From Astropecten irregularis (Eukaryota > Echinodermata > Asteroidea > Paxillosida > Astropectinidae), in contig OZ020254.1 in NCBI GenBank assembly GCA_963971285.1, positions 13,020,001-13,084,000 of the forward strand: a stretch of 64,000 nt of DNA, read 5' to 3'. Under the pieces are notes generated by a model, which had not been told where the DNA came from, searched no databases, and was given only the letters and a program-made list of their open reading frames with translations. Shown here piece after piece: positions 1 to 35,400 of this stretch. The translations under genes and the position numbers were made by a program. Position 1 is the stretch's first letter. Each line of letters starts with the position of its first letter.

Positions 1-164
1 TTTTCTGTCGTTGTTTGACTAATTTCTGGATTAATACACCATTTCAGGCGGAAATATTTTAACGGTAGGTTTATACCAGCACCATCTTCATACCCTGAAA
101 TTTATACATAAATCTGTTAACATTTCTGTTTCGGTTTCTTACCAAAGTATGATACTACCTTTAA
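1..164. repeat. Family A TTAA-type MITE, truncated by window edge
   Basis: Only the right part is in the window. It ends in ACCAAAGTATGATACTACCT followed by TTAA, the same end seen in about 20 other copies here. No coding capacity. Confidence 0.8.
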
Positions 165-1005
165 TGCAATGTAAAAGAGAATTTTCATTGTTAAATGTAG
201 GCACATTTTGAAAAACAAGAAAGCTTGGCTTATTATTCTTATCTTCTCATCTACTGTGCAAATTGCACACCATATAACATGTTTGACCACACATGCAAAA
301 TATACATGCCTTTTTCTGATTACATGTTGCTTTTTTGTCTGATGCAATTTATGTTTACTATGTTTACTATATGTAGGCAACGCACAGTATACTAGATGCA
401 TGAAAATATTATGTGTTAATCAAGAACAGTGCAATTCAAGAATTAGTATTCAAATTGTATAACAGTGATGTGGCTACTTATAATTTCACCAATCATTTTA
501 ATTAAAAAGCACATATCTTGTTGTAATTATGAAGAACACTCATATAACTACTTCATGTATGTTAACAACTGGACCTTAGTTAATATTGCCATTTAGTTTT
601 TGTTCAATTTGTTTTGAAATTCCATATGGTCTTGAGACATGGTGCATAGTATCAATTCAATTCCTGTTTTTGTGTATGTTTGTTTAATATTGGTTTGTTT
701 TTATTTATTTTATTTTTTCAATTAATTCTACTTGCATTTCTCTAATACTTTGAGCATTCATACAGCATAATATGCCACTTTTAGTGGGCCATATTCCACA
801 AATTGATGAACGTTATGGTAAGTCACGTATATCATTAATTGTATCATTCATTACAATTTATGTACATGTATTAAAGTGAGAAACACCATGTACAACTGCA
901 CAGACTGAAAACTCATAAAAAAAGGATTTTTCTGCAGCTGTTAAGTCAGAGATGTAATTGGCCTATGTCAACTGTGTCTAGACACAATGTACTAACTACT
1001 TATAG

Positions 1006-1275
1006 TCATTTGTGCACTATGGGCATTTACGAAACTCAGGCTCAGGCTCAGGCTCAGGCTCAGACTCAGGCTCAGGCTCCAGCACTGACAATCCATGTGC
1101 TGAAAATATAGCTTGTGGGTTTTTCATTGAAGCTGAAACTCTGTTTCCCATTTCAAACCAGAGAATTTATCTTAGAACTGCAACCAAAAGCCTCTATTTT
1201 GGTGCCTGCTATTGTAGAATGGATTCATGAAATGGAGCCCGAGCCGAGCCCGAGCCTCTGTTTCATAAACGGTAA
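1006..1275. repeat. MITE-like element with hexamer-rich inverted ends (family G)
   Basis: The left end carries a (CTCAGG)n-type run at about 1030-1083 and the right end an inverted GAGCCCGAGCC-type run followed by CTCTGTTTCATAAACG. Similar elements with CTCAGG/CCTGAG ends lie at 12.8 and 23.8 kb. The Gly-Ser peptide read from the run is a by-product, not a gene. Confidence 0.55.
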
Positions 1276-1425
1276 AACATAGGTGGTATATGCTGATTCT
1301 GTGCTTATTGTTTATAGGCTGATCAATCCACAACATACATGTAAGGCCAAGGAAAAATGATAAATGTCAATATTCCACAGGTGGATTTAGGATTGGCAGA
1401 ACTGGTGGGTAGTACATTAAAGCAG

Positions 1426-2072
1426 AGCGTACACTGTCAACATTTTAGGTAACAATCTCAGTTACATGTTGACCAGGTACCATGTTGCTGAAAATGTTGT
1501 ACACAGAGCAAAACGAGTTTGGTAATATGTTGCCCAACTGTCCGGCGCTCAGATGTTGCTGGAAGAATGGAAATGCATTTATTTCACGGACATGTTGCCA
1601 CTATTAACCCATCAGGAGTAGGCTTTAGGTCATCTGACACAGGGCCTGTTTGTTTAATGCACAAGATCACTGATCTAGCTGATCTAGATAACATTTTAGT
1701 GTACCCTGCAAAGGAAGTGGATCCGCAGATCTGGGATCCTGTGCGTTGAACAAACAGGCCCTCAGTGTGATCATGCAATTTGGACAAAATGGCAGCTACG
1801 GAGTTATCTAAAACAACATAAAAAACCTAATCAGTTTATGGGTAGCATGTTCCCCTCTGTGGGATGTCGCATGCAAACAAGACAAGACTAAAAAGAAAGT
1901 TGCAATGGCAAGATATATGCCAGATTCTCATTACCTCAGCAACATCTCGGTAACATGTTGGCCAAATGTTGCTAGTGTACACAGGGCGCAAAGTCTTGTT
2001 TCCCTGGTGTGTCGCCCTACCTGAGCAACATGTTACCGAGATTGTTACCGAAAATGTTGACAGTGTACACTC
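1426..2072. mobile_element. Inverted-repeat DNA element, about 650 bp
   Basis: The left end (GCGTACACTGTCAACATTTT and onward for about 45 bp) is mirrored by the right end (AAAATGTTGACAGTGTACAC). There is no transposase ORF. A second small element sits inside it at 1641-1762. A degraded fragment of the same family is recognisable near 21.7-21.8 kb. Confidence 0.7.
1641..1762. mobile_element. Short MITE with AGGGCCTGTTTG ends, nested
   Basis: About 122 bp bounded by AGGGCCTGTTTG and CAAACAGGCCCT, perfect inverted ends, inside the larger inverted-repeat element. It must be the younger insertion. Confidence 0.65.
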
Positions 2073-2145
2073 AGCTTTGAGTATAAGCTATAAAAAGAGC
2101 TTTACGCCATTATCACTGGCCCATGTTAATAGTATCGCTTACATG

Positions 2146-2299
2146 AATAGCGCTTCGCACTAATGACGTCACAAAATCCCCGGATGTCAGACAAACATTG
2201 TCTCACACATGTAGTGTACATGGACGCGCACACCCACACACGTTTGCAATGTTTGTCTGATATCTGGTGCTATTTTTAGCGCAAGTGCGGAGTGCTATT
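2146..2299. mobile_element. Family D MITE (AATAGCGC ends)
   Basis: Bounded by AATAGCGCTTCGCAC and GTGCGGAGTGCTATT. It contains the family signature TGACGTCA next to one end and the CAGACAAACATTG motif. Other copies are at 28.2, 46.2, 53.2 and 55.1 kb, in both orientations. Confidence 0.7.
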
Positions 2300-2719
2300 G
2301 GTTTCATATTCATGCAATGTAAAAATCATTATTATACAAAGTAAACGTTATCCATATTACAATGCATATTTACAACACACTTGACCAAATCTACATTTAA
2401 GTTCATTGTCCAGCATAATAAAAAAACATTGTAAAACATTGTGTCCACATATGTGATTATCATCATCATGTAATTAAGTGTGAAATGATTTCGAAAAATA
2501 AACCAAATCCACTCTTTGGACATTTAGACGTCTATTGGTCATTGTTTTCAAAAGACTTTGGGCAGCTTAGGACATTATGTAAAAGCAATTCTACTGTATG
2601 TACACAATGAAGTTTCATAAAATTTTCATTAGTGAAAATAGAGAAAATTTACACACAAATCTACATGTAGCCTCAACATGACAGAAGATTGCAGTTATGA
2701 CAGCTATGCAATGAATTAC

Positions 2720-3140
2720 CGGTATTGTGTCGAGAACTATTACATGAAAATTAAACTGTTTATCACTTCAAGATTCAGATATGTGATAGAGCTATGTCTT
2801 GGCTATCACCATGTAGAATTTAAGGAAAATCGGGCTGAAAAGGAGGGGAAAAAACTAAAACTGAATTACCCAACCTCAAAACCCGATTTTCATCTTTCTT
2901 TAAATACACATTATGTATGTTTTGACCACTTATTCTGGAATACTGCAAATTTGTTTTTCAAGAGTACTCTTTCAATTGGTCACATTTTCGCCAATTTTAG
3001 CCCAAATATGCTTAAATTCTACATGGTGATAGCCAAGACATGATTTTATCATATAACTGAATCGTGAAGTGATAAACATTTTAATTTTAACATAATGGTT
3101 CCCCGACAAAGTGTTGCGTTTTTTGGGGGACACGCTGTAT
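2720..3140. mobile_element. Long inverted-repeat element, mariner-like right end
   Basis: A segment at about 2720-2840 is repeated in inverse at about 2985-3100 (shared motif CTTGGCTATCACCATGTAGA and its complement). The right end reads GGGGGACACGCTGTATA, resembling Tc1/mariner-type MITE ends. A related fragment is near 21.12-21.23 kb. The superfamily is inference. Confidence 0.5.
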
Positions 3141-4228
3141 ATCAACTTACTAACAGATACATGTATGTACATTAATGAAACATCTAATGTAGTTAACATG
3201 TATGAATACATAATATACAAATCAAGAAGCACATTCATGTGTTGTTGTTTCTATCCAACACTGAGGACAAAGGAAGGGAAAGGATTCCTACAATCAGAAC
3301 TTGATGCTACAACTGGACATTTATACACTTGAATAAGGCTGCAGAGTACAGAACTGGACAGAAGTTTGCTAGTTGGGGAAAATTCTTGCCAAGTCAAGAA
3401 ACTCCAGACAAGTTACCGACTAAAACTGCCTGAAATGTATGCTTGTGTCTGGCCCTCGGGCAATATTAGTCTATGCGATAGACGCACTCGCCGTACAGCG
3501 AGCAAGCCTCTATCACATGCGTGCAGATTTCCTGATTTATTATGCAAGCCAACCCAGCACTGACCTCTCTAAGCTTTGACCAATCAGGGGGCATCTACTT
3601 TCGTATCATATGGCGAGCGCGTCTATCACGCAGATAGCATAGATATAGAATAACATTATTATTTATTCTTTTGATATCTATGGTAGATAGCTGCTGCTGC
3701 GCGGACACGCAAATTTGACCAATCAACACCCTCCATCACGATCCTGACGGAAATGTTCTCAAAACAGATCTGATTGGCTGATGTGCCACGTTGCATAAAA
3801 TGTGCATGCATGCATGTATCAGACGTTCATATACATAGTGACACAGAGAAGAATGGGTGATACTCAGAATAGGTGAATATCTGGTGAACATTAAAATCTG
3901 CTCCGCAAATTTTTTTTCCATGCATCTCTATGAAAATGGCCCCAGTATGAAAAATACCGGTTGTTCCTGTACCTTCTAAACCCCCAATGAGAGGCTTACT
4001 GTTTAAATTCTTTGCAAACATTACAAAAGGCCCTATAAGAAATAGTCACCAATAAATTATTTCAGAGTCTGATAACTGATTTGGCAAGTGCTTCAAACAA
4101 AATACAGTCAGCAAATGTTCATTGGTGAATTTTGTGGGTTATTTCATTTGAAAGCAAATAATCATTCACAATTGTCTATGATTTACTTTTTCAATTTAAA
4201 TTCATTGGCAAAGTAGGTAGTATTCAGC

Positions 4229-4594
4229 TTTAAACGTACTATCATACTTTGGTAGCATACCGAAACAGACATCTTCACAGATTTACATGTACCTATAACT
4301 AATGATGGTAAAAACATACAATTCTGACTGAAATGCTGTATTTATCCAGAAAAGAGTCAAAGAGTCAAACCAATGACCATAACATATTTTGATCATTTAA
4401 AGACCACAAATAACGGTGGAAAGATTTAATTTGAAAAACAATACTGTGGGTGTTTATTTTTTTACTGTTTTATCAAAAAGTGGACACCATATGGGACTGA
4501 AAATTTCACAGATGACTGTTACTGTACATTGATACTTTTGCCCATGAATCTGCATTTCCGTTGACAAAAACCAAAGTATGATATTACCTTTTAA
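4229..4594. mobile_element. Family A TTAA-type MITE, near full length
   Basis: Starts TTAAACGTACTATCATACTTTGG and ends CCAAAGTATGATATTACCTT plus TTAA. It is about 360 bp, with inverted ends and a central GATCTTTTAAAAGATC-type palindromic motif (degenerate here). Confidence 0.75.
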
Positions 4595-5029
4595 GAGGAG
4601 GCTCCACCAATTATGGCTGAATCAATTTGTTTATGGAAGTTACAAAATGTATGCATTTTATTATGAGGCAATCAAAGTCAAGATAAGCAAAGCTTATCAA
4701 GTGGTGCCCTTAAAAATAACAATAAATATTTCAAAGGTAAGAAATCAATCGAAGACAATGGATAATTTAGATATTACAGTACAAAAAAATTTACAATATA
4801 CCTCACAGAGTTTAAAAAATATAAGCGCCCACATCTTTACTCAGTTTTAAAATCGGGGCAAAAAAAAAACCGAGTAATTAAGCAACGAATATAAAATATG
4901 AAAGAGATAATTTGTATTACACGTAATTCTTCCCTTCATTAAATGAGGAAATATGAAGAGGATATGAAAGATCTACAACTCTACAACTACCTTGGTTAGT
5001 CATTGAAAAGTGAAAAAAGAAAAATTTAC

Positions 5030-5125
5030 CGGAGCGGGATTCAAAGCACCAACCCCTGGAATACCGTACAAGTGCTCTACCAACTGAGCTATCCAGCCCT
5101 ACGTTGGTGGTGACCCCAATACGCC
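5030..5125 (-). repeat. tRNA-derived SINE head, degraded copy
   Basis: On the minus strand this reads AGCTCAGTTGGTAGAGC (box A-like) followed by a decayed box B (GCTTTGAATCCCGC). The flanks match the better copy at 8.64-8.77 kb, including the GGTCACCACCAACGTA leader, so this is a dispersed SINE and not a tRNA gene. Confidence 0.55.
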
Positions 5126-6079
5126 ATTAGTCAATTATCTTTGTTTGTTTGGCAGTCAGAAGCCATGAAACCAGTCACATACTGCTGCATACAGGACTAC
5201 AGGTATATCCCAAGGATTATTTACCTGCAGCATTAGTAATACTGCAACCAGAGGAACAGCTAGATTATGTAAATGTCTCTAGCATAAGCAGCACCAACAC
5301 AGGCCCAAAAGCCTCATAGACAATGAGCATGGACCATGAAAAAATTAGAGTTCTCAACCCCGACTAAATCTAAGGTCTGACTTAAGAAATTGATGGAACA
5401 GACCTCAGGGAACATTTCGAAGTACTATGTGGCCTCAAATTGTGGTAACACTTTTGTGTAATATCCCAAAAATTATTGCAATATTCCCCCCCCAAAATTA
5501 AGAAAAACAAAAGAAAATTCAACAAATGGGTTTTAAAAGCTCTTGCTTCTGACTTATTATAAAAAAATTTAATTTCTCTGTGAATGGATAATTAATTATA
5601 TAATCACATAATCATTCACCAAAATACATATCAAGGACTTGGGGGGGCAGAAAATACGACCATGCCCCTTTTTTTTCAGTTGTATTGTGAATCTTGTTAT
5701 TGTTGATCCTCAAACGATGCCACATTTTCTCGAAAGTGATACCACAACTTGAAGCAACATATACTATCTAGCAAAGCTGTTAATGGTATAAACGTCCATT
5801 TTATGAAGTCAAACCATAGATGTAGTGGGTGTTGAGCTAAACACATGAACAAGAGGGTTTTCAGAACTTTGCTCCCTGACTATCACAAGCAAGTTGAAAG
5901 TTGATGCACAAAGAAACTGTCAATGTGTTTATAAAGGCTACCTGTACTCTAAAATAAGTCGGTGGGCAAGAGTGGTGGGAGTTTCAAATTGACGGGAAGG
6001 GCTGTAGTTTGGAGTCTTTTAATTTTGCAAACAGATTTTAGGTTCATGCAATTAGATTTCAGGATATGTCAGTGCACAA
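5126..6079. other. Intergenic or 3' flank of the Ig-TM-NACHT gene
   Basis: No coding exon, RNA gene or clear transposon end was recognised. The part nearest 6080 is expected to be 3' untranslated sequence of the minus-strand gene. No obvious AATAAA was found on the minus strand close to the stop codon. Confidence 0.4.
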
Positions 6080-7335
6080 TTAGCTTGACAGCCAACCTCT
6101 GTCACGAAGATGTGAAACAGCCTCACTGATTTCTGAACTGTTTCCAAGCGCATGACTGTTGGCAGCATAATAACAAGCTGCAAAGTAATCCCGAAAATGG
6201 AATAAAAACTCAACATTTTCTTTCAGTTTGGTCCCAATTGTCACGGTTTCTTTCGACAGAGCACCAATTTTGAAACCATACTCAAGAGCGCTGGTGACAT
6301 CGGAGAAGTCCGAAGGAGAAAAATCTTTCGCTGCAACTAATCCCTCAAATGCGACCTTACCAATGTTCTTCTTGTATTCCCATATTTCGTCCTGATTGAA
6401 CGAGTGACCCTTTTGGGTAGCATGACTTTCCAGTGCCTCTACCACTTTGTTGTAGAGGTCACTGTTTTGCTTTGGGAGGGATTGATTTGAATGCCAGATG
6501 ATGCACAGTAGCAGGAGCATGAATGGTGACTTTGCAAGTGAGGAGATGGCTTCACTTGACTTAATTTCTTCCATGAGTGCATCATTAGTACTTTCGTACA
6601 GCTTTTCGATGTATGTCGCCATCTCTTCGAAATCATAACCTGTTGTCTTGACTACAGAGTAACCGTTGTTAAGTTTTTGAAGGGTTTGAAGTTGATGGGG
6701 GCTCATGGTGATCAGGATTTTACATTTTCTGAGTGCATCTACTGACAACAAATCTTTAAAAGAAAAGTCCTCTTTGGCTATGCTGCCTTTTACTTGCAAG
6801 GATGAGTCTTCCAGCAGAAACAGCACCTTGTCCTGATGTCTGGCGATGAGCTTCTTAATCTGCTGCTTGGTTATATCAGACTCTGCTGGAAGGAGCTTGC
6901 AAATGGCATCGCACACACCGGAGGCACCCTGATTCATGTCTTTCTTTTCTAGAGCGATTACAAACATGAAGTCTTCGCCTAACCTTTCACAGGCCCATTC
7001 ATATGCAATCTTCTTGATGATGGTCGCCCTCCCGATCCCCGCACTCCCGACAAGAGCAACCCGGTGTTTATCACCTAGATAGTTCATGAAATCGCTTACC
7101 GTTTTCAGAGGGGTCTTCTGTTTATTTCGGGGGGAATTTTCGCCTGAGCATTGGCCTTGACTGAATGACTGTTTGGCAGTGATGATGTTATGTCCAAGTT
7201 CATAGAGCGCCGGATGGACATACATGTCATCAATTGTCCTCATACTCAGTTCATCAGCGATGTGGGTAGGTATTTTGTTCAGTTTCTCTTGGTAGAGTGT
7301 CTTCAGGTGGTGCACCAACTCATGTCTAATGGGAT
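6080..7335 (-). CDS. Ig-TM-NACHT gene exon 5 (NACHT-like NTPase, stop codon)
   Basis: A single 1256-base exon after the acceptor TTTGCTCGTAG. Residues 213-305 form a linker with a RTIDDMYVHP motif like the segment before many NACHT domains. Walker A lies at 7022-7048 (GSAGIGRAT) and the Walker B region at 6806-6823 (LFLLED). Both deviate: no Lys and no Ser/Thr in the P-loop, and LEDSS in place of the usual LDGxDE. The FLFHFRDYFAACYYA stretch near the end fits the C-terminal part of the NACHT/winged-helix unit. TAA is at 6080-6082. NACHT membership is well supported; NTPase activity is doubtful. Confidence 0.85.
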
Positions 7336-10300
7336 CTACGAGCAAAGAAAAATAATACCTTTAATTCAGGCATACATACATGTACGTTGAAAAAATGCAA
7401 CAATTACCGTAAGTGATCCATTTCACTTTCTCAGTGTCATCCATATAGCTACATGTATATTACAATTACTAGAGCGCTAGCTCTGCATTCTTTGTGAGTA
7501 TATGCTTTGAAGCCGTCCTGGGCGCAGTCATTTTGAATTTGAGTGCGTGTCTGTGCAGGAATAAGAAAACTTTGACTGAAATGACTATAAAAGAGAGTAG
7601 GGGGCCTACTCTATATGCAACATACAACTATGCGTGAACAGCACCGGTAGCGCGTCTTGATTGATGCATGCAATCATTGCGTGACTGAAATGCAGAGTGT
7701 GTGCGCACTAAACTGCGCAAAATGAAACACTCATTTACCAAAGGTGCATCAGATTTTGGGAGTATTGGGCTTCTATAACACACCTATGTTACAAACGCAG
7801 ACTATTATGCAAATAGATGTACAAGAGACAATTTTGTGTTTTCCATAGGTTTGTGCACAAACATGGATGTGCCCAACAGGCATCACTCTGTACACAGAGC
7901 TAGAGCTCTAATAAGTTTAATATAGCTCTATGGTGTCATCTCATCTGCTTATTATTATAAGCTCCGACAAGGTCCATAGAACAAGCCTCTTGACAATACA
8001 GGGTAAATAAAGGAACAATTTTAACGGTGTGTTTCTACCACCATCATCTTCATATCACCTGTAAGTTATAGGTAAATCTGTGAACATTTCTGTTTTGGTT
8101 TCTTACCAAAGTATGATACTACCTTTAATCTATAACTGAATAAAAATCCCAGCACTAGTACATAAACCTTTATTCCAAAAGATATGTAAGTCTCACCTTC
8201 CTCTCCAAGTTCAATATTTTCATATTTTTTAGCATTCTCACAATTGCATTTCCTCCATATCTGCAAGTCAGAAAAGGAATAAAAAATCGATCAATATTTT
8301 TCTGTATGCATGCTACTTTCCTAATTAAAGGAATACATCATTGGTAAGGTCACAGGACAGCACTCACACTTTGTCTGATCACACATGTACATGAAATAAT
8401 GAACCTGTGAAGATTTGAGCTCAATAGGACATCATGAGTCATGAGAAAATAGCGAAAACCCGACCGACTCAATTTTTCTTATAAAAAATTAAGAATGGTT
8501 TAATTAATACCCCGAGATCAAAACTGTTTTTGGTTTTGGTTTACTCATTTCTGGATAAATTAAAATACAGCATTTCAGGTGAAAATATTTTCGTGAAATA
8601 ACCACAAGGGAAACTGACTGAGTTTTTTTAAGTCATTGAAAAGTGAACAAAGAAAGATTGACTGGAGCGGGATTCGAACCGGCGACCTCCTGAATACCGT
8701 ACAGGCGCTCTACCAACTGAGCCATCCAGCCCTACGTTGGTGGTGACCCCAATAGTCAACTATTGACACACACCGCCACACCCCAGGGATCGTTTCAATG
8801 ATACACGCAACAATGCTGCAACCTGGGAACGGCACATGAAAATATTTCAACGGTATGTTTCTACCAGCAGCATCTGCATACCTTGAGTAAAAGGGGATAA
8901 CTAAAACAACTCAAGTGAGGGTGTCCTTTATGTTCGGATGAACGATCTTTGGAAAAGACACTATTAAAATCTTGATTTCTTTGAAAAAACCCAGCATCTG
9001 ATGAACCAAGAGTTCCCATGGTGACTGTTTGCACTGTTTATGAACTGTTGAGACCAAAAAGATTTTTTGGTCGCTGTTTTACTAATTTCTGGATAAATAC
9101 ACCATTTCAGGCGGAAACATTTTAACGATATGTTTCTACCACCATCACCTTCATACCCTGTAAGTTATACATGAATCTGTGAACATTTCTGTTTTGGTTT
9201 CTTACCAAAGTATGATACTAGCTTTAACAGGTAGGTTCTTGATTTTTATTAACTAGCCCACTGGGCAAACAAGGAAGCGAGTCTAGCTAGCTAGCTAGCA
9301 CGGAGTAATTTTTGCTAGACATTGTACACCATGCTAGTACTACATGTACTTCCACTCTGCCTGCTGTGTAAGAATTTAAACATACGATAAACATGAACAA
9401 TACATTTGAAAAACAAATTTTCACATACCTTGAAATAAAATATAAGAGCGAATATTATGACAGCCACGACAATCACAACGATGATAATGCCTGCAATGTC
9501 TCCTCCACTAAGCCCGTCAGTCTGCTTATCGTTGTCATTTGCATTTGCCATCGTTGGTGCTACTAGTGGTGCTTTGGTCACATCTGCAGTACAACAAATA
9601 CCACATCAAATCAGTGAAACTTCCTTGAACACGGGGGATGACAATGTTTGTGAATTTTGTAATAATAATAATAATAATAATTTAGGCATTTATATAGCGT
9701 TCTTACACACAAGAAGGGTATCATATCACAATGCTTTACACTAATATTATCCCTGGTCATCAGGCCATTTTACATTCTTGAAACAATATCTCAGCTCCCT
9801 TGTACCAGCCAAGACGGCCAATGTTTCATATTGCTCCTCTGAATTCTGGGAATATGTTTTCTTGTTCATGAATATGAATGATTTTTGTCGGGAGATAGAT
9901 ACATCAAATCAGGCTTGCCCTTCACCGACGTGGTACCTGCCACGATATTGGATTCGATTTAAACCGCTGACCCTAGCTAGCTCGGTGGCCTATGCGGTAT
10001 GGAATCTGCACTAGTAAGCAAGAGGTTGTGGGTTCGAATCCCACATGAGTCACTAGTGCATGATTTTTTCATGTGCACTCAACAAGCACTGACAGCATGA
10101 GTATGCATTGCTCACACATCGGTGAAGGGCAAGCCTAATTTGCATGTTTACTTGTTGCATAAATGTGCTGAAAACAACCATCAGACAAATGAAATGACAC
10201 ACGTTTTTAATGCAATTATGTTCAGCGCTGTACATGTATGACTCAACGTCGGAAATTTGGTCTCTACAGTCCGTGACTCGGCCTCGGCCTCGAGGGATTT

Positions 10301-11922
10301 TGACTGATGACTCAGTTTGTGTTTAAAACTGAAACCTGTTTCCCAAAATTTTTGGGGGAAAATTTTCAATTTTGCATTCAATACAGTTACAGAAAGAAAG
10401 TTAAAATCATTCTGATATTGTCTCTTTTTGCACTTGCAAAATGTGGTCGGTTTAATTACGATGAATGTAACAAGCGCAAACAGCGATCTCGATGCGTTGA
10501 ACAGACATACATACGGTACAAAACAGCTCAGACACGCCAGAAGAAAACGCAGCGCCAGAGATTCAGCCGTGTCTGAAACTTTCTAGAACTGCGGCTAGAT
10601 TTTCATTGCAGCGAAGAGTCGAACATGCATAATTGCATACTTAGCCACGGACAAATAGACTGCGCAAAATGGTCTGCGCTGCATGGGTGCCTAAAGCCAG
10701 GGGCCAATTTAAGCACCAAAATTTGCTTAAGCACCAAAACCCTTGGTTACAAATAAAATCAGCATGCCAGCCAAAACTCCTTGTGAATGTTATGCTCAGC
10801 AAACATTGGCCAAATACAAGTCAAAAGCAGTAAACATCACATGAAAATTTGGTTGGCAATCCTGTTTGATCAAGCAAGACTTTTCACGCTTAAGCAAATT
10901 TTGTGCTTAAGCAGCTCTATGAAATTGGTCCCTCGACTTGGATGTGGCCTTGGCCGTGGCCTTGGCCTTGGCCTCGAATGGCTCGGCCTTGGCCTCGGAG
11001 GTTGTGGACTTGAATACAACTCTGCATATGTTTTTGATGATAAACAAGCTATAATAAGCAAATTTTGTGCTTAAGCAGCTCTATGAATTTGGCCCCTGGA
11101 CTCGGATGTGGCCTTGGCCTTGGCCTCGAATGGCTCGGCCTATATGGCCTTGGAGGTTGTGGAATCGAATGCAACACCAAATAAATACTTGATAAACAAG
11201 GAAGATATTATACTTGCCACTTGATGAGACCGATACATTCACCCTGTGTATTTTAAAACTATGGGGGATGCGTTTTATCCGTGCTTCATACGTCCCCTCA
11301 TCTTCATTCGCAACATTATGAATCAGGAGAAAGAACGATGAGACATTCAGGCTGTATTTTGTGGTTGAAATTCCCGGGCCATAGGAGATGCTTCCTTCAA
11401 AGTATGACACCATCAGTCTGCTGTCTCCGTTGGGTCCTTCTTTGTACCAGTACAGACCAGCGACCTCATCTACTGTGTATGTTCCGTCAACAATCCATGG
11501 GCATTGTAAAACTCCGTCTTTGCCCTGTTGCAGGTTTGCTGCTGCGTCTGACGACAATGCGACAGTCAGACATGCACTCACTGCACAGACAAAAAACAAG
11601 AAAAGACAAGTAAATTACAATGGTAAACGTATGTAGTACATTGCTTTGAACAAGACATTGACAACAAGTAGAGATAATGTGAGTTATAGGCAGCGTACAT
11701 AATTTGTAAGGCCTCCAACCAAAATTGATTGAGTTTGAGACAGAAAATGGACTCAACAGTTTGTAAACAGTCACCATGGGAAATCTTGGTTCATCAGATG
11801 CTGGGTTTTTCAAGCAAATCAAGATTTAGTGTCTTTTCCAAAGACTGAAATTTGAAATTTCACTTACACGTACAAGCAAAGACAAAACAAAGCCGTGTCT
11901 GTTTTCCAAGGTGTGTAGCCAT
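6080..11922 (-). CDS. Ig-like / transmembrane / NACHT receptor, complete five-exon gene
   Basis: Exons (minus strand order): 11868-11922, 11221-11580, 9429-9583, 8197-8260, 6080-7335. They join in phase to 630 codons including the TAA stop. Predicted order: signal peptide (about 1-31, hydrophobic LCFVFAC...LTVAL), V-type Ig-like domain (C45, W63, D112-x-G-x-Y116), a linker rich in N and D, one membrane helix (about 168-189), then a cytoplasmic piece with W-R-K-C-N-C (192-197) and a NACHT-like NTPase (about 300-629). Walker A is GSAGIGRAT (308-316), with R and A where K and T are expected. The end carries a FLFHFRDYFAA motif like the NACHT winged-helix end. No LRRs follow; the stop comes soon after. 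By analogy with NLRs it may be an innate immune receptor, but membrane anchoring with an Ig ectodomain is not the usual NLR plan. The join after exon 2 uses a weak donor. A function as sensor or adaptor is inference. Confidence 0.75.
8015..8128. repeat. Family A fragment (right end) in intron 4
   Basis: Ends ACCAAAGTATGATACTACCT plus TTAA, with the GTTTCTACCACCATCATC internal segment. The left half is missing. Confidence 0.65.
8197..8260 (-). CDS. Ig-TM-NACHT gene exon 4 (juxtamembrane tail)
   Basis: 64 bases between the acceptor TGACTTGCAG and donor GTGAGA, coding IWRKCNCENAKKYENIELGEE. Basic residues and two cysteines lie right after the membrane helix; they could be palmitoylated (inference). 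The tyrosine motif KKYENIEL resembles a phosphotyrosine or sorting motif, which is speculative. It ends with one base that joins exon 5's AT to give Asp. Confidence 0.7.
8331..8600 (-). repeat. Family B TTAA-type element, truncated, inverted
   Basis: The CATTGGTAAGGTCACAGGAC, CACTTTGTCTGATCA and GAGATCAAAACTGTTTTTGG motifs match the complement of the full copies at 35.9 and 38.3 kb. The outer ends are incomplete. Confidence 0.55.
8640..8770 (-). repeat. tRNA-derived SINE with near-intact cloverleaf (8660-8731)
   Basis: Read on the minus strand, 72 bases fit the tRNA plan: a 7-bp acceptor (GGCTGGA with TCCAGTC, one G-T pair), box A TGGCTCAGTTGGTAGAGC, a 5-base variable loop and box B GGTTCGAATCC. 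The anticodon loop is ACGGTAT (triplet GGT), with C at position 33 where tRNAs have U, and the T stem has one mismatch. The flanks are shared with the copy at 5.0 kb, so a SINE is preferred over a working tRNA gene. Confidence 0.6.
8890..9046 (+). repeat. Dispersed repeat family K copy
   Basis: Shares long stretches (GATAACTAAAACAACTCAAG, CCATGGTGACTGTTTGC) with 25544-25785 and, inverted, with 11695-11848. No coding capacity was seen. Confidence 0.6.
9047..9227. repeat. Family A fragment (right half) in intron 3-4 region
   Basis: Runs from the AAAGATTTTTTGGTC core to ACCAAAGTATGATACTAGCT plus TTAA; the left half is absent and replaced by family K sequence. Confidence 0.6.
9429..9583 (-). CDS. 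Ig-TM-NACHT gene exon 3 (stalk and membrane helix)
   Basis: The acceptor GTACTGCAG is followed by codons for VTKAPLVAPTMANANDNDKQ, a Gly-Ser turn, then IIIVVIVVAVIIFALIFYF before a Lys and donor GTATGT. The helix has about 20 uncharged residues with a basic residue just after it, consistent with a type I single-pass membrane protein. It is phase 1 at the start and phase 0 at the end. Confidence 0.75.
9661..9681. repeat. (TAA)n microsatellite
   Basis: About seven AAT triplets in a row. Confidence 0.9.
9965..10055 (+). repeat. tRNA-like SINE segment
   Basis: A box A-like TAGCTCGGTGG is followed about 50 bases later by a perfect box B context, TGTGG-GTTCGAATC-CCACA (5-bp T stem). The acceptor stem is not convincing, so this is read as a Pol III SINE head. 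Confidence 0.45.
10695..10932. mobile_element. Family C variant MITE
   Basis: Starts CAGGGGCCAATTTAAGCACC and ends GCTTAAGCAGCTCTATGAAATTGGTCCC, inverted ends like family C at 14.75 kb but with AAGC-type spacing and a different centre. Confidence 0.55.
10893..11210. repeat. Imperfect tandem duplication with GGCCTTGG runs
   Basis: Two consecutive copies (about 10893-11057 and 11058-11210) share GTGCTTAAGCAGCTCTATGA, a GGCCTTGGCC-rich stretch, GGTTGTGGA and TGATAAACAAG. The second copy stops about 10 bases from the Ig exon's donor site, so it lies against the coding exon in intron 2. Confidence 0.6.
11221..11580 (-). CDS. Ig-TM-NACHT gene exon 2 (V-type Ig-like domain)
   Basis: The acceptor is TTTTTTGTCTGTGCAG. 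It encodes residues 19-138. The Ig signature runs LQCPW (C45), LYWYKEG (W63) and NEDEGTYEARI (D112/G114/Y116). In ordinary V domains a Cys lies two residues after the Tyr; here that position (118) is Ala, so the usual B-F disulfide cannot form. One N-glycosylation motif is at N97. The donor chosen (CAA|GTGGCA at 11220) is weak but is the only one that keeps exon 3 open; a stronger-looking donor at 11213 gives a stop in exon 3. Confidence 0.7.
11695..11848 (-). repeat. Dispersed repeat family K copy, inverted, in intron 1
   Basis: The complement of the 25.6 kb copy (GCCTCCAAC, GAGACAGAAAATGGACTCAA and ATCAGATGCTGGGTTTTTC are shared). It lies between exons 1 and 2 of the Ig-TM-NACHT gene. Confidence 0.65.
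11868..11922 (-). CDS. Ig-TM-NACHT gene exon 1 (start codon, first half of signal peptide)
   Basis: The ATG is at 11920-11922. The 18 codons read MATHLGKQTRLCFVFACT and end with one extra base before the donor GTAAGT. The spare T joins exon 2's TG to make Leu, so the hydrophobic stretch continues across the intron and forms a convincing signal peptide. This phase match is the main reason for choosing this start. Confidence 0.7.
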
Positions 11923-12774
11923 GGTCTTGCATCTACATGCAGAATCCCAATCTTTTGCAGTGGAGTCAGGCAGAAACAGTATAAAATCTTTCCCTTCCTG
12001 TGTGTGGCGTTATAGTTAGCACTGGAGCGAAGAGATTTTGTCGACTGCAGACTACACGAGGATTACAAATTGGTGCTGTGGAAGGAAAAACAACAATATA
12101 CTGTACAAATAAAACCCAATGCAATCAGTGATATTCTATATTAAAGGTTCGGTACATGCAAGACAAGTTTCAAGCGCAGCAATTCCCCAAAATGGCTCCA
12201 CCACTATGACCAAGTGCTCAGCCAGAAATGCTTCTTGATCATGTTGATGTCAAAGTAATAAACTTGTGACTCAGCCTCTGTGTTCAGACTTTCATGGTTT
12301 GGGAAATTTACTTTCTTTTTTTTCTTGCGCAACATTTTGGAGCTTGGAAAGTTTTGTAGTGTATAATGCCACTATTTTTGCTTTGCTTATTTCCTTTTCC
12401 TTTTTTGTTTTGTTTTGCCCGCATGAACCCATTTGAATTAGGTGAGGAAAAGTGGGCTTCATAAAATGACAATAGACCGATTGCGCAACCATTGTTTACA
12501 TGCCATCACATGATGCCTTAAGTGGGTATTTTTAAAATCTCATTTTGTGCAGAACAGCAGTGAAATTAACAAGCAAAGAAGACTTGTTTACATCCTTTGC
12601 ATGTTTTCATCATGTGTTGTTCTGCTCAAAATGAAACATAACCACGTAAACATACCCACTAGGCCTATGGGTCACGTGATGGCATGTAAACATTGGTTGC
12701 GCAATCAGTCTCAATTGATTTCTGCACCATTTCTTCTGATTGAACCAAGAAAGTTGGTCTTTAAAACTAGACAC

Positions 12775-12985
12775 AGAGCATTTATGAAACGGAGGCTCAG
12801 GCTCCATCTCAGGCTCCGGCTCCATTTTGTGAATGAAATAACTGGTATCAAAAATCATTTATAACTTAGATTCTCTGGTTTGAAAAGAAAAAACAGAGCT
12901 TCAGCTTCAGTGAAACACCACAACCTTTATTTTCAGCATGTATGTCAGAGCTGGAGCCTGAGCCTCTGTTTAGTAAACGCCCCCA
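12775..12985. repeat. Family G element copy
   Basis: Bounded by GGAGGCTCAGGCTCC-type and GGAGCCTGAGCCTCTGTTT sequences. The internal TCTCTGGTTTGAAAAG and CAGAGCTTCAGCTTC segments resemble the 23.8 kb copy. Confidence 0.5.
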
Positions 12986-14752
12986 GTCGGATTGGAGGGC
13001 GCTGGACTCCCTTTTTAATTTTGGGGTTGACAGTCGGTCTAATGCCCCAGAGAATCTCATAGCGCTTCTCTTTTGGGGGAATTTTTTGGCACAAGTACCG
13101 AGAAGTACAATTTTTTCTGTGTACAACCCATTTAGGGCTATGCATGGGATTCTCTGCGGTGCTCACCGCTGTTTCCGTGGCGAAATCTAGTTAGCTGGCT
13201 GTGCGTGGGCGTTACAGTGGGCGTTCATTGATGAAGCGCGCCCTCTTGTGGTTATCTTTGTCCACTGCTTAATTAGCATGATTTATTTACGCCTTTTTAT
13301 GTAAATTCCTAATGAATATTGAGCATTTTCTTGTAAATGATGTAAAATAAGGTCAACTCTTCCCCTGTTGAACTTAAAATGGGGCGGCCCAGTGTCGAGG
13401 GTTTGGTGTAATTCGAGTTTCAAAACCGCCGTAAATTTTGGTCTTTACACCGAAGTCCCACAGACTGGCCACTTTGCTTGCCTTCCATAATGTCTCTGGA
13501 AGTTTTCCTGGAGAATTGTTAGTATTCAACATGAAGATCTATTCGTTGTCGAGTCATTTGTAACGGAAATGGAGTGCAGAACCCATACACTTTTGCGTTA
13601 GTAAACATTCAATGTTGGTGCGAAACCGTGCAATATGAACATGCCACATACCATCATGCATCACTTTCTCTCTTATTTTGAGGGTTTCCCGCGGCCCTGG
13701 GCCTTTATTTATTTATTTATTTATTTATTTGTATCAGCATTTCAGATGTAAAAAAAAAAAAAAGGCAAACGAACTTCATGTACTGTGTAATTAATTTATT
13801 TGTATAATAAACATGTATGGAAATTCCTAGAGATTATTCCACGCTGGTTAGCTGGTACCCGCCCAGCTTCTACAGAAAACTAACGACTCTTCCCTCCTGT
13901 CACGGTATACGCACTAGGCCTATACTGTACTGTACAGTGCATGTTAAACTGTACAGTACAGTGTGCATGTTGCCTATGGGTGCGTGCACGTTGCACGGGT
14001 GAAAAGCACCCCACGAGCCCCGTTGTATGTCGCATTCTATTCTAATTTCCTACCGGGTGTGGGGGTTATATACTTTAAAAAGGCCCTACTTTTGTAAAGT
14101 AAGAACTGGTTTTAATGGCTATTCCAATCCCCTGATTAGGAAAACTTCCTTTCTTTGAGAAAACATGACTTAAAAACGTACTTTTTCTGGAATCCGTCGT
14201 CTTTCTTGAGAAAAGAGCGCTGCTTGTATTTTTGTATTTCGCGCTACCTGAACCTCCAGAAATTTCTTTCTCGGCGATTTGCCAGCTGAAATATACATAT
14301 GCAACAGTTCCATCACCTTTTTACCAGCCCATAAAGTCTATATTACGAAATTTTGGAGGAGTTTATGACACGTTTTGAGAGCTGGCGTTATGAGGTCACA
14401 CCTCATGAATATGCATTTTTAGTGACCCACCATGAAAAAGTGGCGCATGCGCGAAAACTAGATTTCGCCTATGGAGCCCTTGAAACAGCGGTGTGCTAGA
14501 CTGGCCATCAACGCCACAATAAAAAAAAGGGAGTTCAGAGCCCCAGTTACTGGGTCTACTTTAAAACAATTATTATTTTTTTTTATAACAGCCCCCATTC
14601 CCATGCATGCCATGCAGGGTATATTGGGCTGTCATTAATGAATGGTCAGTTTGTATTTCACAACATCATATAGACCCATTTAACCATTTTAAAGTGGGAA
14701 TTAATTTCCCAAAATGGTCACAATCAGCACTTGCAATACTATGGAATGCATC
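12986..14752. other. Intergenic, no gene recognised
   Basis: Contains a (TTTA)n run near 13710-13730, a poly-A run near 13750 and a small inverted repeat of ACTGTAC/GTACAGT words near 13925-13965. The short ORFs here do not resemble known proteins. Confidence 0.5.
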
Positions 14753-14997
14753 CTGGAGCCAATTTCACGGCGCTGCTTAGCACAAAAATTTGCTTAGCAC
14801 AAAAATGTCTTGCCCAATAAAACAAACCACCGTAAAAAATTTCATTTGATATTCATGGTCAGTGAACAACAGTCAAAGAACAATCACAAGCGATTCACAA
14901 CACATGGAAATTTGGTTGTTAACCCTGTTTTTATTAAGACAGAAATGTCATGCTTAGCAAATTTTTGTGCTAAGCAGCGCCGTGAAATTGGCCCCTG
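14753..14997. mobile_element. Family C MITE, full copy
   Basis: About 245 bp. The ends GCCAATTTCACGGCGCTGCT and AGCAGCGCCGTGAAATTGGC are perfect inverted repeats, extended by TTAGCACAAAA/TTTTGTGCTAA. The internal GTTTTTATTAAGACAGAAAT contains the TTAA used as an insertion site by family A in other copies. Confidence 0.8.
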
Positions 14998-16030
14998 AGA
15001 TTATAAAATCTCAGTACATGTACGGTGACGTATTATATGTATGAGGAGTAACTGCGATGGTAATTAATATATCCTGAATATCCTGAAAGTATGAAATTAC
15101 ATGTAAGCCTCATGATTTGAAGTTATTGCGAATACAGAGCTCTGCCTGAAAGGAAGTGTAGAGTCGGGCACACAATGTACCCATTACTTAGGCAGGGTTC
15201 GAACATGCCAGTCAAAATGCTCACGGACCAGTCACACTCTTGTTAAAATGGTCCGACGGACCAGTCAAAATAATTGCACACCGTCACACATTAGCCCCTT
15301 AAAAAATCATACATTGTCATGATGCCACATTTATGATGACCGCCATGACTGAGCATATTTTTTTGTCAAAAATAATACTGAGAACTGAATCTTTCCATAA
15401 TTAGGTAGTTTAGGCCTATACTGTGCCTAAATTTAATTTGATATTGAAAATTGAGGAGAGAACGAATGAGAGTTTATCTTGCCAAGTAGCGATAAATGAA
15501 AATGCATATGTGTGAATTCACTCACACAAAAAGAGGACCAATAGGCCTAGGCCTATAAACATGTACATGTAACATGGAAAAGTGAAGGCCAATTATTGTG
15601 CCAATACTGAGGTTTATTTTGTTTTGTTTGTGTGAATCTGCATACTCAGATTTCATGAACTTGCAGGAACAGTGCCATACATGTACATAGGCCTATACAT
15701 TTCAGGAAGTGTCCATCCTACAGTACTTTCAGTAAAATAAATACTGGTTCAGTTCACATGTACCGTAACTCATGACAGTGAGTTACGGTATGATCTCATC
15801 ACAACAAAATATCTTGGGAAATCAGCGTCCTAAAATGAATCCAGGAAATGTTTTCCAAGTCTTCCGCAAGAAAGGCACTGTTTTGAAAAATGTTGATCTC
15901 TCCCCTTTGTTTTGAACCTGGCTTTCCTTAAAAGTAGAAACACTAATTTACAGTAGAAACACAGTCAGAAAAAAAAAATTAAAATAAAGGGCAAGCCCTG
16001 ATCGCTATGCTAAGATCCTGAACCTGAGCA
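14998..16030. other. Intergenic, no gene recognised
   Basis: AT-rich sequence with several AGGCCTA words and no recognisable exon, RNA gene or bounded transposon. Confidence 0.45.
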
Positions 16031-16436
16031 TATAGCTCTGAGACAGCTCGACCGCAAAGACAACTCAACTCTGAGACAGCTCGACCGCAAAGACAACTCA
16101 ACTCCGACCCAGCTCGACCGCAAAGACAACTCAACTCCGAGACAGCTCGACCGCAAAGACAACTCAACTCTGAGACAGCTCTACCGCAAAGACAACTCAA
16201 CTCTGAGACAGCTCGACTGCAAAGACAACTCAACTCCGAGACAGCTCGACCGCAAAGACAACTCAACTCCGAGACAGCTCGACCGCAAAGACAACTTGAC
16301 TCCGAGACAGCTCGACTGCAAAGACAACTCGACTCTGAGACAGCTCGACCGCAAAGACAACTCAACTCCGAGACAGCTCGACCGCAAAGACAACTCAACT
16401 CCGAGACAGCTCGACCGCAAAGACAACTCGACTCCG
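16031..16436. repeat. 33-bp minisatellite, about 12 units
   Basis: The unit is 33 bp (GAGACAGCTCGACCGCAAAG then ACAACTCAACTCC with small variation). Because 33 is divisible by 3 and the unit lacks stops on the minus strand, long repetitive ORFs (SCLCGRAVSEL repeats) appear in two frames. No start context, splice signals or conserved flanks suggest a real protein. Confidence 0.9.
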
Positions 16437-18776
16437 ATCGAGACTCCCAATCCCTGTACTTAAGTACAATTTTATTACTACTAATAGGGAGTTAGGCCTA
16501 CTAGGCCTACAATACTAGGCCTATATACTCAGACTACTGACGCCCTGTTTCAGTGTATGATTGACACAAACTGGAGTGTTATTATACATGTAACTTATAG
16601 GGCTTCATGGTCACTGTCAACTCTCCTTCCTCCATGATGACTACGCGAAGTGTTCATTACAGGGTTAGTTAGTTGCAATGATGGTAACCCTAGGTCTGAC
16701 ATGGGGACTGGGACCTAAGACATGGGGCTAAGGTCCCAGTCCCCATGTCAGACCTAGGCAGTGCTTCCACAATCAAAATGACGATTTCCTCATTCGGAGA
16801 CTCAAATTTCCTTATTTTCCTCCCGATTTCCTTATTTTTTCATAATAGCCCCAAAAGCCATGTACTAGACTACTACGTACACTGCTCTATAAATCTTGTT
16901 ATGCTGAGAGTGAGCAGAAATCAGCGCTAAAAACGTACCAGTGACTGACTGCCAATAATATACAGGTAAATGTATATAATAATACAGGCTAGTAGGCACG
17001 CACTGCATTCCATGCCCCAGAAATAATTAATAAAAAAGAAAAGAATGAAAAGCGCCCTCTGCAGCTTTTACTGATAATAGGGCCTCAGACTCCAGATCCA
17101 GGGGAAATTATGCTTGCAAGATATGGCAATTCAATATAATCAGACAACAAACTTTTCGAAAATTATCATAAATTCATATATTTTGCTGCTTATTTGGAAA
17201 ATTATGTATAATTTGCTCAGAATTTAATAATATCCTTACAATTTCTTTAGATTTGGAGGATTTTCTTAAAATTTCCTTGTTTTTTTTCATTTCCTTAAAT
17301 ATTCCTTCAAAAGTAAAAATTTCCTTAAAATGAGGAAATTTCCTTGAATGTGGAAACGCTGGACCTAGCATGCCTAGGGTAACCATCATCGCAACTATCC
17401 TCCATCATGATCATGTACTATAAAGCCTATACTAGCCTAACGTTAGGCCCTAGCTACATGTTGTAGTGAGTAGTATAGTAGTAGTACTACTACTACACTA
17501 CTACTACTACTACTAGTATAAACATGATAAAGATTAAAAGAAGTAGGGTCGACATACAACATACATGAATTTATTTTAAATAAGAACCTACCGTAACCGT
17601 GTGATTTGCTTAACGTAAGCATGGAGGTATAAAACGTAAGCTAATCCCACATCCAATATCGCGTGCGATGGTGTCCGAAGGAAAAGATGGACACTTGCCC
17701 TCTTGATGATGGACACAGAAACACTCGATCAGAATTATAAAATGCTCAATTCATGCAAGAAAATGTGACGTTTAGCGTACCGTTTGCTGCGTAACTGGAA
17801 TAATGATGCCTGTGACTGTGCTGCTGTTTACAATTAAGAGGTGTGTCATGTGTGTGTTGCAACTCGGGTTTACGTTTGGGATTCCCCAGATTGCACCATA
17901 AATTATGCTAGTAGTCTTGATTCAAGACGTTGCCCGCAGTTGAGCATAAACAGGCGCATCCAAGCATCTCTTGTGAAATTTTAAAATCGCGTATCTTCAA
18001 AAGTCGCAAAAAGTCGCAGCCAAATTTTGCTTGAAATTTAACCTGAAGGTCCAGGCTTTAGGAAAATCCATGAGCTGAGGCGGGAATCGGCGGGAATTTA
18101 ATATTGTTTTCCGTTTGAAAAAAAAAGAGCTTATTTTTAACGATTTTTACCTAAGTTTGGAGTTTTCAAGACTTTATTCACAATTTTCACGATGACATCT
18201 TCTCTGTTGCAACCGTGTCAGTCATTTAAACTCATAGAGCTATATTAAAATTAATTAGAGCTCAAGTTTTATTACTTTATTTAGGCCTACTTGGAATTGT
18301 TGTGATTGTTTTTAGTACACTGTACATAGATCGAAATTTCGCCCCCTGTAGGTAAATGAAAGGTTTATGGCCGTTAATTTGTGTATGTAAAGTACACCGT
18401 GGACCATGAGAGAAAAAAAACGCCCCAAAACAATGGTATTGATTTTGGAAAAAGTCGCATTTTTTAATTGCCTATTTTTGCGCAGTTTGATCGACCTTGA
18501 ACTGGCCCTCTGTGTGTTGTTGTGTCGCTACTTCAGTGTCAACATAGTAAACGATCCGAGACCATGTCTACGTCACACACAAAGCACGTCCACACCATGT
18601 TGTCAGTTTTCTTCGGGCTGTGGAATGTTTCAAGACGAGAGATGCTTCTTTTGCCAGCCATAATTAGTTGTTTTGAGGGACTCGCGCATAAACAGCGTCT
18701 TGGACCAAGACTAACCCTAAATTTAAGCAGACAACCCCACCCTTCAAGCGCTTATCATTAAAACATACATTAGTCG
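16437..18776. other. Intergenic, no gene recognised
   Basis: Contains an inverted pair near 16683-16757 (GGTCTGACATGGGGACTGGG and its complement) and TAG/CTA triplet runs near 17465-17515. A TCCTTAAAATTTCC-rich patch at 16790-17350 looks like a low-complexity inverted element. No coding exon was supported. Confidence 0.4.
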
Positions 18777-19839: not shown

Positions 19840-19872
19840 TAAACAACACTGACGCACAGTAGCCCTATACTA

Positions 19873-21123
19873 GCTCGGCTGCGTTTTCGTAGTGCAAGTC
19901 ATGCTATACTTGGATTTTTGGGAATGAAACCGAGTATAAATTTGTGCAAAACTGAAATAATCCTGTAGGGAACATCCACGGCTACATTTTGTAAAGGTTT
20001 CAATTCGGTTGCTTCAATATTCAGAAAGAAAATGTCAAACTCTGCCACAAAAATGCACCTAAATACTGTTCCCAATTGCCGCCATTGTAATGCAAGCTCG
20101 GCTGCGTTTCCGTAGTACAAGTCATGCTATACTTGAATTTTTGGGAATGAAACCGAGTATTAATTTGGGCAAAACTGAAATAATCCTGTAGGGAACATCC
20201 ACGTCTACAATTTGTACAAGATTCAGATCGATTGCCTCGATATTCAGAGAATAATTTCCAACTCTAGAACAAATATGCGCCTAAATATTGTTTCCATGCG
20301 GCCATTTTAATGCTAGCTTGGCTGCGTTTCCGTAGTACAAGTCATGCTATACTTGAATTTTTGGGAATGAAACCGAGGATTAATTTGGGCAAAACTGAAA
20401 TAATCCTGTAGGGAACATCCACGGCTACAATAAATATTTGTACAAGTTTCAGATCGATTGCCTCAATATTCAGAGAGTTATTTCCAACCCTAAAACAAAA
20501 ATGCGCCTGACACTGCTCCCGTGCCGCCATTGTAATGCAAGCTCGGCTGTGTTTTCGTAGTACAAGTCATGCTATACTTGGGTTTTTTGGAATGAAACCG
20601 AGTATCAATTGGGGCAAAACTGAAATAATCCTGTAGGGAACATCCACGGCTACAATTTGTACAAGTTTCCGACCGATTGCCTCAATATTCAGAGAATAAT
20701 TTCCAACTCTAGAACAAAAATGCGGCTAAAATTAATACTGTTCCCGTGCCGCCATTGTAATGCAAGCTCGGCTGCGTTTCCGTAGTACAAGTCATGCTAT
20801 ACTTGGATTTTTGGGGAATGAAACCGAGTATTAATTTGGGAAAAACTGAAATAATCCTGTAGGGAACATCCACGGCTACAATTTGTACAAGTTTCAGATC
20901 GATTGCCTCAATATTCGGACAGTTATTTCCAGCTCTAGCATAAAAATGAACCTGACAATGTTCCCGTGCCGCCATTGTTGTAATGCTAGCTCGGCTGCGT
21001 TTTCGTAGTACAAGTCATGCTATACTTGGATTTTTGGGAATGAAACCTAGTATCAATTTGGGCAAAACTGAAATAATCCTGTAGGGAACTTCCACGGCTA
21101 TAATTTGTACAAGTTTCAGATCA
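19873..21123. repeat. Tandem array of about 223-bp units, 5.6 copies
   Basis: Units start near 19873, 20096, 20316, 20541, 20766 and 20989 with GCTCGGCTGCGTTTTCGTAG (or a variant). Each contains GGAATGAAACCGAGTAT and CTGTAGGGAACATCCACGGC. Spacing is 220-225 bp. The short minus-strand ORFs in it are shared by every unit and look incidental. Confidence 0.9.
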
Positions 21124-34969: not shown

Positions 34970-35400
34970 TAAATGTCTGTGAAGCCATGAAAAGTCGCGT
35001 CTTCATTACCATTTTTACCCCCATAAATTCCCTAAAAAATCAAAGCCCTGCCCGCTTTCCACAACTGAATGTAACCTTGAATGGGCAAGACTTGCGGTGA
35101 CACCATGTAAAATACTCTTTTAGGAAGATGTGTGGTCCTGAAAAGGACCGATGAGAGTGGATTCTCGACGTTTCGACTAGTGTGCTCTAGTCCTGAAAAG
35201 GGGTTTGAAGTTTTGCATGAGTGGTGGAGAGACTAGAATGAGTATTAGACTTGCAGTGACACCATGTATATTGCTCTTTGAGGAAACCTTACTAATATTG
35301 AAGAAGAAACATCAAACGTATATTTAGGTGAGTCACTTTACAAATAGTTGTTTTCCTTTCCTTATAGTGTTGGAACCGATGAGTAGTCCACAATCCCCAT
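34970..35400 (+). repeat. Dispersed repeat family I copy interrupted by a foldback
   Basis: The outer parts match 22985-23246; the centre (about 35083-35275) has inverted ACTTGCGGTGACACCATGTA-type arms around a hammerhead-like centre. Confidence 0.5.
35161..35200 (-). other. Hammerhead-like half motif in foldback centre
   Basis: The minus strand reads TCAG, then GACTAG-AGCACA-CTAGTC (perfect 6-bp stem), then GAAAC GTCGAGA. The CTGATGA box is degenerate here. Confidence 0.35.

Follow-up and report, generated by a model that had tools for sequence, protein, structure and literature searches.

Whether a single gene can place an immunoglobulin (Ig) domain outside the cell and a NACHT module inside it, and whether such a module needs ATP, is the question raised by a locus of the asteroid Astropecten irregularis. 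The locus occupies positions 6080-11922 on the minus strand of a 64,000-nucleotide stretch (hereafter the window) of contig OZ020254.1 (assembly GCA_963971285.1, positions 13,020,001-13,084,000). It holds what looks like an animal gene, intact in appearance, that encodes a cell-surface Ig receptor with an intracellular NACHT domain; most likely, the membrane-anchored Ig-NACHT protein, which is without LRR, is the product of one gene. This architecture is already known from sea cucumbers, and the window gene is a new, divergent form with a single Ig.

Five minus-strand exons join into a single frame of 1890 nucleotides that encodes 629 residues followed by a stop codon, with GT/AG borders at all four introns and no internal stop, which confirms the in-phase join claimed in the earlier note. 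Exon 1 (11868-11922) provides the start codon and the signal peptide (MATHLGKQTRLCFVFACT...), called from the hydrophobic N-terminus by hydropathy, and ends in phase 1; exon 2 (11221-11580, phases 1-1) encodes the Ig V-set domain; exon 3 (9429-9583, phases 1-0) the stalk and membrane helix; and exon 4 (8197-8260, phases 0-1) a short cytoplasmic tail. Exon 5 (6080-7335), entered through a phase 1 acceptor, comprises a pre-NACHT segment, the NACHT domain, a winged-helix-like end and the stop codon; the NACHT frame measures 426 residues from stop to stop and is the second longest in the window, behind a frame of 688 residues. The donors of exons 1-4, scored with a consensus matrix, reached 7.1, 1.0, 9.6, and 10.7 bits, respectively, and the exon 2 donor (11221) is thus as weak as had been noted. 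An alternative donor at 11243 scored better (6.6 bits) and was rejected as out of phase with exon 3. A 631-residue model, two residues longer at the end of exon 2, has no GT at its donor and the adjacent GTATAA is out of phase, so 11221 was kept; it is further supported by two paralogues on contig C17 of the same assembly, in which the V-set exon, as judged by eye, stops close to the same residue and likewise in phase 1. Intron 3 also contains a tRNA-like sequence (RF00005, 52.8 bits, 8659-8731, minus strand), with an 85% copy at 5028-5098, which may be a tRNA-derived repeat.

A Pfam search of the joined protein returned a V-set domain at residues 34-136 (11228-11536, 31.4 bits) and a NACHT domain at residues 303-457 (6599-7063, 57.6 bits), both above the gathering cut-offs of 26 and 26.7, respectively. 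The highest 19-residue Kyte-Doolittle mean of the protein (3.61, computed on the gene model carrying two extra residues after exon 2) falls between these domains, where a membrane helix (IAGIIIVVIVVAVIIFALIFYF, residues 168-189, 9432-9497) is followed by basic residues; lesser stretches above 1.6 mark the signal peptide (maximum 2.02) and the region just past the NACHT domain (maximum 1.82). The cytoplasmic tail contains a predicted endocytosis motif, YENI (8213-8224), which we take to belong to the YXXPhi class and to act accordingly. The Ig and membrane segments occupy the place of an N-terminal death-fold effector, and neither such an effector nor a CARD was matched in the Pfam search of the protein (E ≤ 1). 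When the minus strand of 1-6399 and 7400-16399 was searched with Pfam in its three frames (E ≤ 0.1), neither an LRR nor a second Ig domain was matched, a search that short exons could escape, and a second Ig of the type found on C17 had no match in the window (E ≤ 1). LRR exons downstream on the minus strand, considered as a candidate extension of the gene, were set aside because Pfam matched none within the window. The order proposed earlier, from signal peptide through V-set, membrane helix and tail to NACHT without LRR, is therefore borne out by Pfam and hydropathy. By sequence, the NACHT domain is most similar among PDB entries to those of NAIP and NLRC4, which are cytosolic and carry CARD or BIR together with LRR; of the features of NACHT-LRR proteins (NLRs), the window protein has the NACHT domain and lacks the C-terminal LRR, the death-fold effector and an intact nucleotide site.

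The 475.7-Mb assembly contains at least 43 NACHT matches including that of the window, these counts being lower bounds. When residues 1-142 of the window protein were used as an Ig query (10 candidates scored), six genome matches were obtained, two of them the window's own exons and four on C17, three of the latter at 10.59-10.61 Mb adjoining two NACHT exons. This stretch holds genes B and C (C17:10.60-10.62 Mb), a tandem pair on one strand, unlinked to the window locus, each with a V-set, a second Ig in two exons, a membrane exon and a NACHT exon, and thus paralogues with the same domain order. Gene B passes Pfam for V-set (43.3 bits), C2-set_2 (23.8, cut-off 21), and NACHT (84). As read by eye, the phases at the shared boundaries are equal in the window gene and in genes B and C, namely 1 at the 3' end of the V-set exon, 1 to 0 for the membrane exon and 1 at the NACHT acceptor, and a candidate tail exon of phases 0-1, resembling exon 4, is available in gene B. 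The additional second-Ig exons of genes B and C start and end in phase 1, so that their gain or loss leaves the frame intact; besides this second Ig, both genes differ from the window gene in having an intact nucleotide site and a longer C-terminus. In the reverse direction, the gene C V-set (8 candidates scored) retrieved seven listed V-set places, of which six, including itself, are on C17 and the seventh is that of the window; a NACHT follows in three of the seven (window, B, and C). Alignment of V-set exons from five of these seven places showed that the cysteine at what we take to be the B strand is invariant and kept in the window protein, whereas the presumed F-strand cysteine is absent from four, the window's included, and present only in locus L019. 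The missing disulphide is thus common to the group and not damage peculiar to the window copy. Five V-set queries matched none of 20 other NACHT loci, each taken with about 6.5 kb upstream (tblastn, E ≤ 0.01). Two C17 regions carry V-set exons of this group with no NACHT listed close by. One, gene A (L015, C17:10.590-10.594 Mb), has candidate Ig and membrane exons, no NACHT being listed between it and gene B; the other, at C17:1.40-1.43 Mb, is covered in part by L019, which also has a candidate membrane exon. Forms of the family with Ig and membrane segments but without NACHT may therefore exist.

That some V-set loci of this group have no NACHT listed close by bears on whether the window holds one gene or two adjoining ones, that is, a short-tailed Ig receptor encoded by exons 1-4 and a separate NACHT protein starting within exon 5. 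If translation ran on past the exon 4 donor into intron 4, it would stop after 64 residues counted from the beginning of that exon, as two genes would allow. However, the exon 4 donor is strong (10.7 bits), the exon 5 frame opens just 25 nucleotides upstream of its acceptor, and similarity in exon 5 begins before the first internal methionine (residue 243), from residue 222 for gene C and from about residues 218-221 for two NACHTs of contig C18. Since the C17 pair repeats both order and phases, and the V-sets find each other in genome searches, a single gene is supported and a division into two is regarded as very unlikely. This argument rests on the Ig and intron evidence and not on NACHT kinship.

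In a tree of 23 rows, the window NACHT grouped with those of genes B and C (support 95/93); kinship with the C17 pair is likely. The window NACHT departs from its relatives at the nucleotide site. Alignment with paralogues showed a degenerate Walker A (GSAGIGRAT, 7022-7048, K to R and S/T to A), a degenerate Walker B (VLFLLEDSS, 6800-6826, against hhhDGhDE in most paralogues read) and a degenerate sensor 1 (KILITMSP, 6698-6721, with S against R in the paralogues read). Altogether, seven site residues differ in the window (K to R, S/T to A, D to E, D to S, E to S, R to S, and H to F), the last probably representing a true replacement of the winged-helix histidine; G of the P-loop and P of sensor 1 are retained. 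The Walker A K and S/T, the first Walker B D, the E, and the sensor R are intact in 24/24 of the other NACHTs read in the genome, and the second Walker B D and the winged-helix H in 23/24. As read from the alignment, the losses of the second Walker B acidic residue and of the winged-helix H depend on how the sequences are placed, BLAST against gene B putting a D near the former site and a histidine lying one residue past the latter, whereas the losses of K, S/T, and R do not.

These replacements bear directly on a canonical NLR-like switch, along the lines of the sensor and signalling parts supposed in the earlier note, in which binding of a ligand outside the cell would trigger nucleotide exchange and NACHT oligomerisation within. 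The NACHT signature (57.6 bits), the similarity to NAIP and NLRC4, and the acidic ED pair and nearby histidine that remain at the alignment-dependent sites would suit such a switch, which nevertheless appears improbable because, in the alignment, K and S/T of Walker A, DE of Walker B, and R of sensor 1 are replaced. Of the proposal that the NACHT module is the signalling part, the presence of the domain is upheld, and its operation as an ordinary ATP-driven module is weakened because Walker A, Walker B, sensor-1, and probably winged-helix residues are replaced. Among the entries listed by literature searches for a degenerate Walker site, none was an animal Ig-NACHT protein of this type, a result that is weak as evidence of absence.

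Loss of the site could also be a symptom of decay. It was considered whether the gene is an Ig-membrane-NACHT pseudogene, in which the lost site, the shortened C-terminus, the weak donor, and the long branch would all have the same cause. In addition to the seven replaced residues and the donor of 1.0 bits, the window frame extends about 380 residues less far beyond the winged helix than the gene B frame, the C-terminus of genes B and C has no match in the window (E ≤ 1), the end branch of the window NACHT is long (about 2 changes per column), and the NACHT exon of its relative gene C (L018, C17:10619411-10621846) has one in-frame TAA. Against decay, there is no stop in the joined 1890 nucleotides, and other conserved positions are mostly kept: at alignment positions shared by 23 or more of the 24 rows, the window retains 1/8 site positions as compared to 17/22 others (the sensor P counted among the others). 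Fisher tests of site against other positions gave p = 0.0025 at this threshold, 0.050 at 24/24, and 0.006 at 22, values that are too small because the rows are related. In simulations of neutral decay that started from the intact exon of gene B (400 of its codons; substitutions only, no indels), at least six of the seven site losses without a stop arose in 0/400 runs at each of eight divergences. Relaxed or directed loss while the gene went on coding thus fits better than simple decay, although function may have been lost recently, after long constraint. On balance, a pseudogene is considered unlikely.

The architecture itself has precedents. The earlier note knew of no described family with this order; that the order is undescribed is contradicted by the sea cucumber literature. 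AjNLRC4 (MN607598) of Apostichopus japonicus is described there as a membrane-located protein with Ig outside and NACHT inside, whose Ig part binds microbes, which dimerises and enters the cell on Vibrio infection, and whose NACHT binds beta-actin with a dissociation constant (Kd) of 5.87 uM; a later paper reports that AjNLRC4, once internalised, binds caspase-1 through its Ig domains. As in the window protein, where the Ig lies behind a signal peptide, a membrane helix separates Ig from NACHT and neither CARD nor LRR accompanies the latter. AjNLRC4 differs in having two Ig domains and two reported membrane segments, whereas the window protein carries a single Ig and terminates shortly beyond the NACHT. 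The second reported segment of AjNLRC4 (residues 776-795) starts 19 residues past the NACHT end (757), and in the window protein a hydrophobic stretch begins about 16 residues past the NACHT, in a segment common to the aligned NACHTs; it is on that ground suspected to be a core helix and not a membrane helix. AjNLR-new (PIK48001.1), from the same species, also combines Ig, membrane segment, and NACHT in one protein, of 1197 residues, but is reported with its NACHT outside and its Ig inside. In the Chiridota heheva genome paper, NLRs with a V-set domain are named, combining V-set and NACHT as in the window, and are stated not to be found in sea urchin.

It is proposed, with slightly better than even confidence, that the window gene encodes, as one gene, a divergent, single-Ig type I membrane receptor of the AjNLRC4 type, the NACHT of which works as a scaffold independent of nucleotide. 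What is observed is the set of domains in this order, a gene structure common to paralogues, and the loss of nucleotide-site residues. The extracellular V-set would bind a microbial or self ligand; binding would cluster or dimerise the receptor, which would then be taken up, perhaps aided by the YENI motif. The NACHT, hardly able to use nucleotide, would provide a static surface for docking, for instance of actin as reported for AjNLRC4, and such docking would, by analogy, drive or tune phagocytosis. The window protein could be a surface pseudo-NTPase immune receptor that keeps the NACHT fold without nucleotide use, serving either constitutively as a scaffold or as a dead partner that pairs with and restrains the intact-site receptors of C17, in the manner of plant P-loop-defective NLRs, which pair with active NLRs. 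We regard this reading as plausible, if somewhat short of an even chance.

Several points weigh against the receptor-scaffold proposal. The roles in actin binding and uptake are borrowed from AjNLRC4, to which the window protein is likened by domain layout and not by sequence homology; protein searches in a large collection, probably poor in animal proteins, gave no match at E ≤ 0.001 or E ≤ 0.01, a result of little weight. The splicing of the five exons is deduced from the genomic sequence and includes the weak exon 2 donor. Among the paralogues, a phase 1 acceptor is present at the 5' end of the V-set in genes B and C, together with one of phase 2 (B) or 0 (C); the gene B tail exon appeared at relaxed site thresholds and not at the first setting, and in gene C no convincing tail exon was found even at relaxed thresholds. 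In gene C, neither the V-set (25.0 bits against 26) nor the second Ig (17.2 bits) reaches its Pfam cut-off, the gene A V-set has no Pfam match, and V-set loci without a listed NACHT occur, as mentioned above. The nine site positions were tabulated over 24 of 42 other NACHT matches. With two C18 rows added (25 rows), the grouping of the window NACHT with genes B and C fell to 86/80 and was no longer starred, placement with L040 alone was rejected (p 0.0004) but that with the C15/C21/C30 group was not (p 0.066), and the tree tool warned of joined long branches, the window's own being long.

Elsewhere in the window, the 688-residue open frame (60476-62542, plus strand) resembles, as judged by eye, the end of a retroelement polyprotein with an integrase-like part, and a histone 3' untranslated region stem-loop (Rfam RF00032, 36 bits, cut-off 34) lies at 35109-35154 on the minus strand. 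Tandem arrays are present at 16036-16437 (33-base unit), 19872-21122 (225-base unit), and 42237-42482 (19-base unit).

Together, the phases shared between unlinked loci of the genome and the resemblance of their V-sets to each other support the combination of Ig, membrane helix, and NACHT as a heritable plan and not a mis-joined model. With intact and apparently dead versions of the nucleotide site, this one genome offers a natural experiment on whether ATP is required by a membrane NACHT at all.

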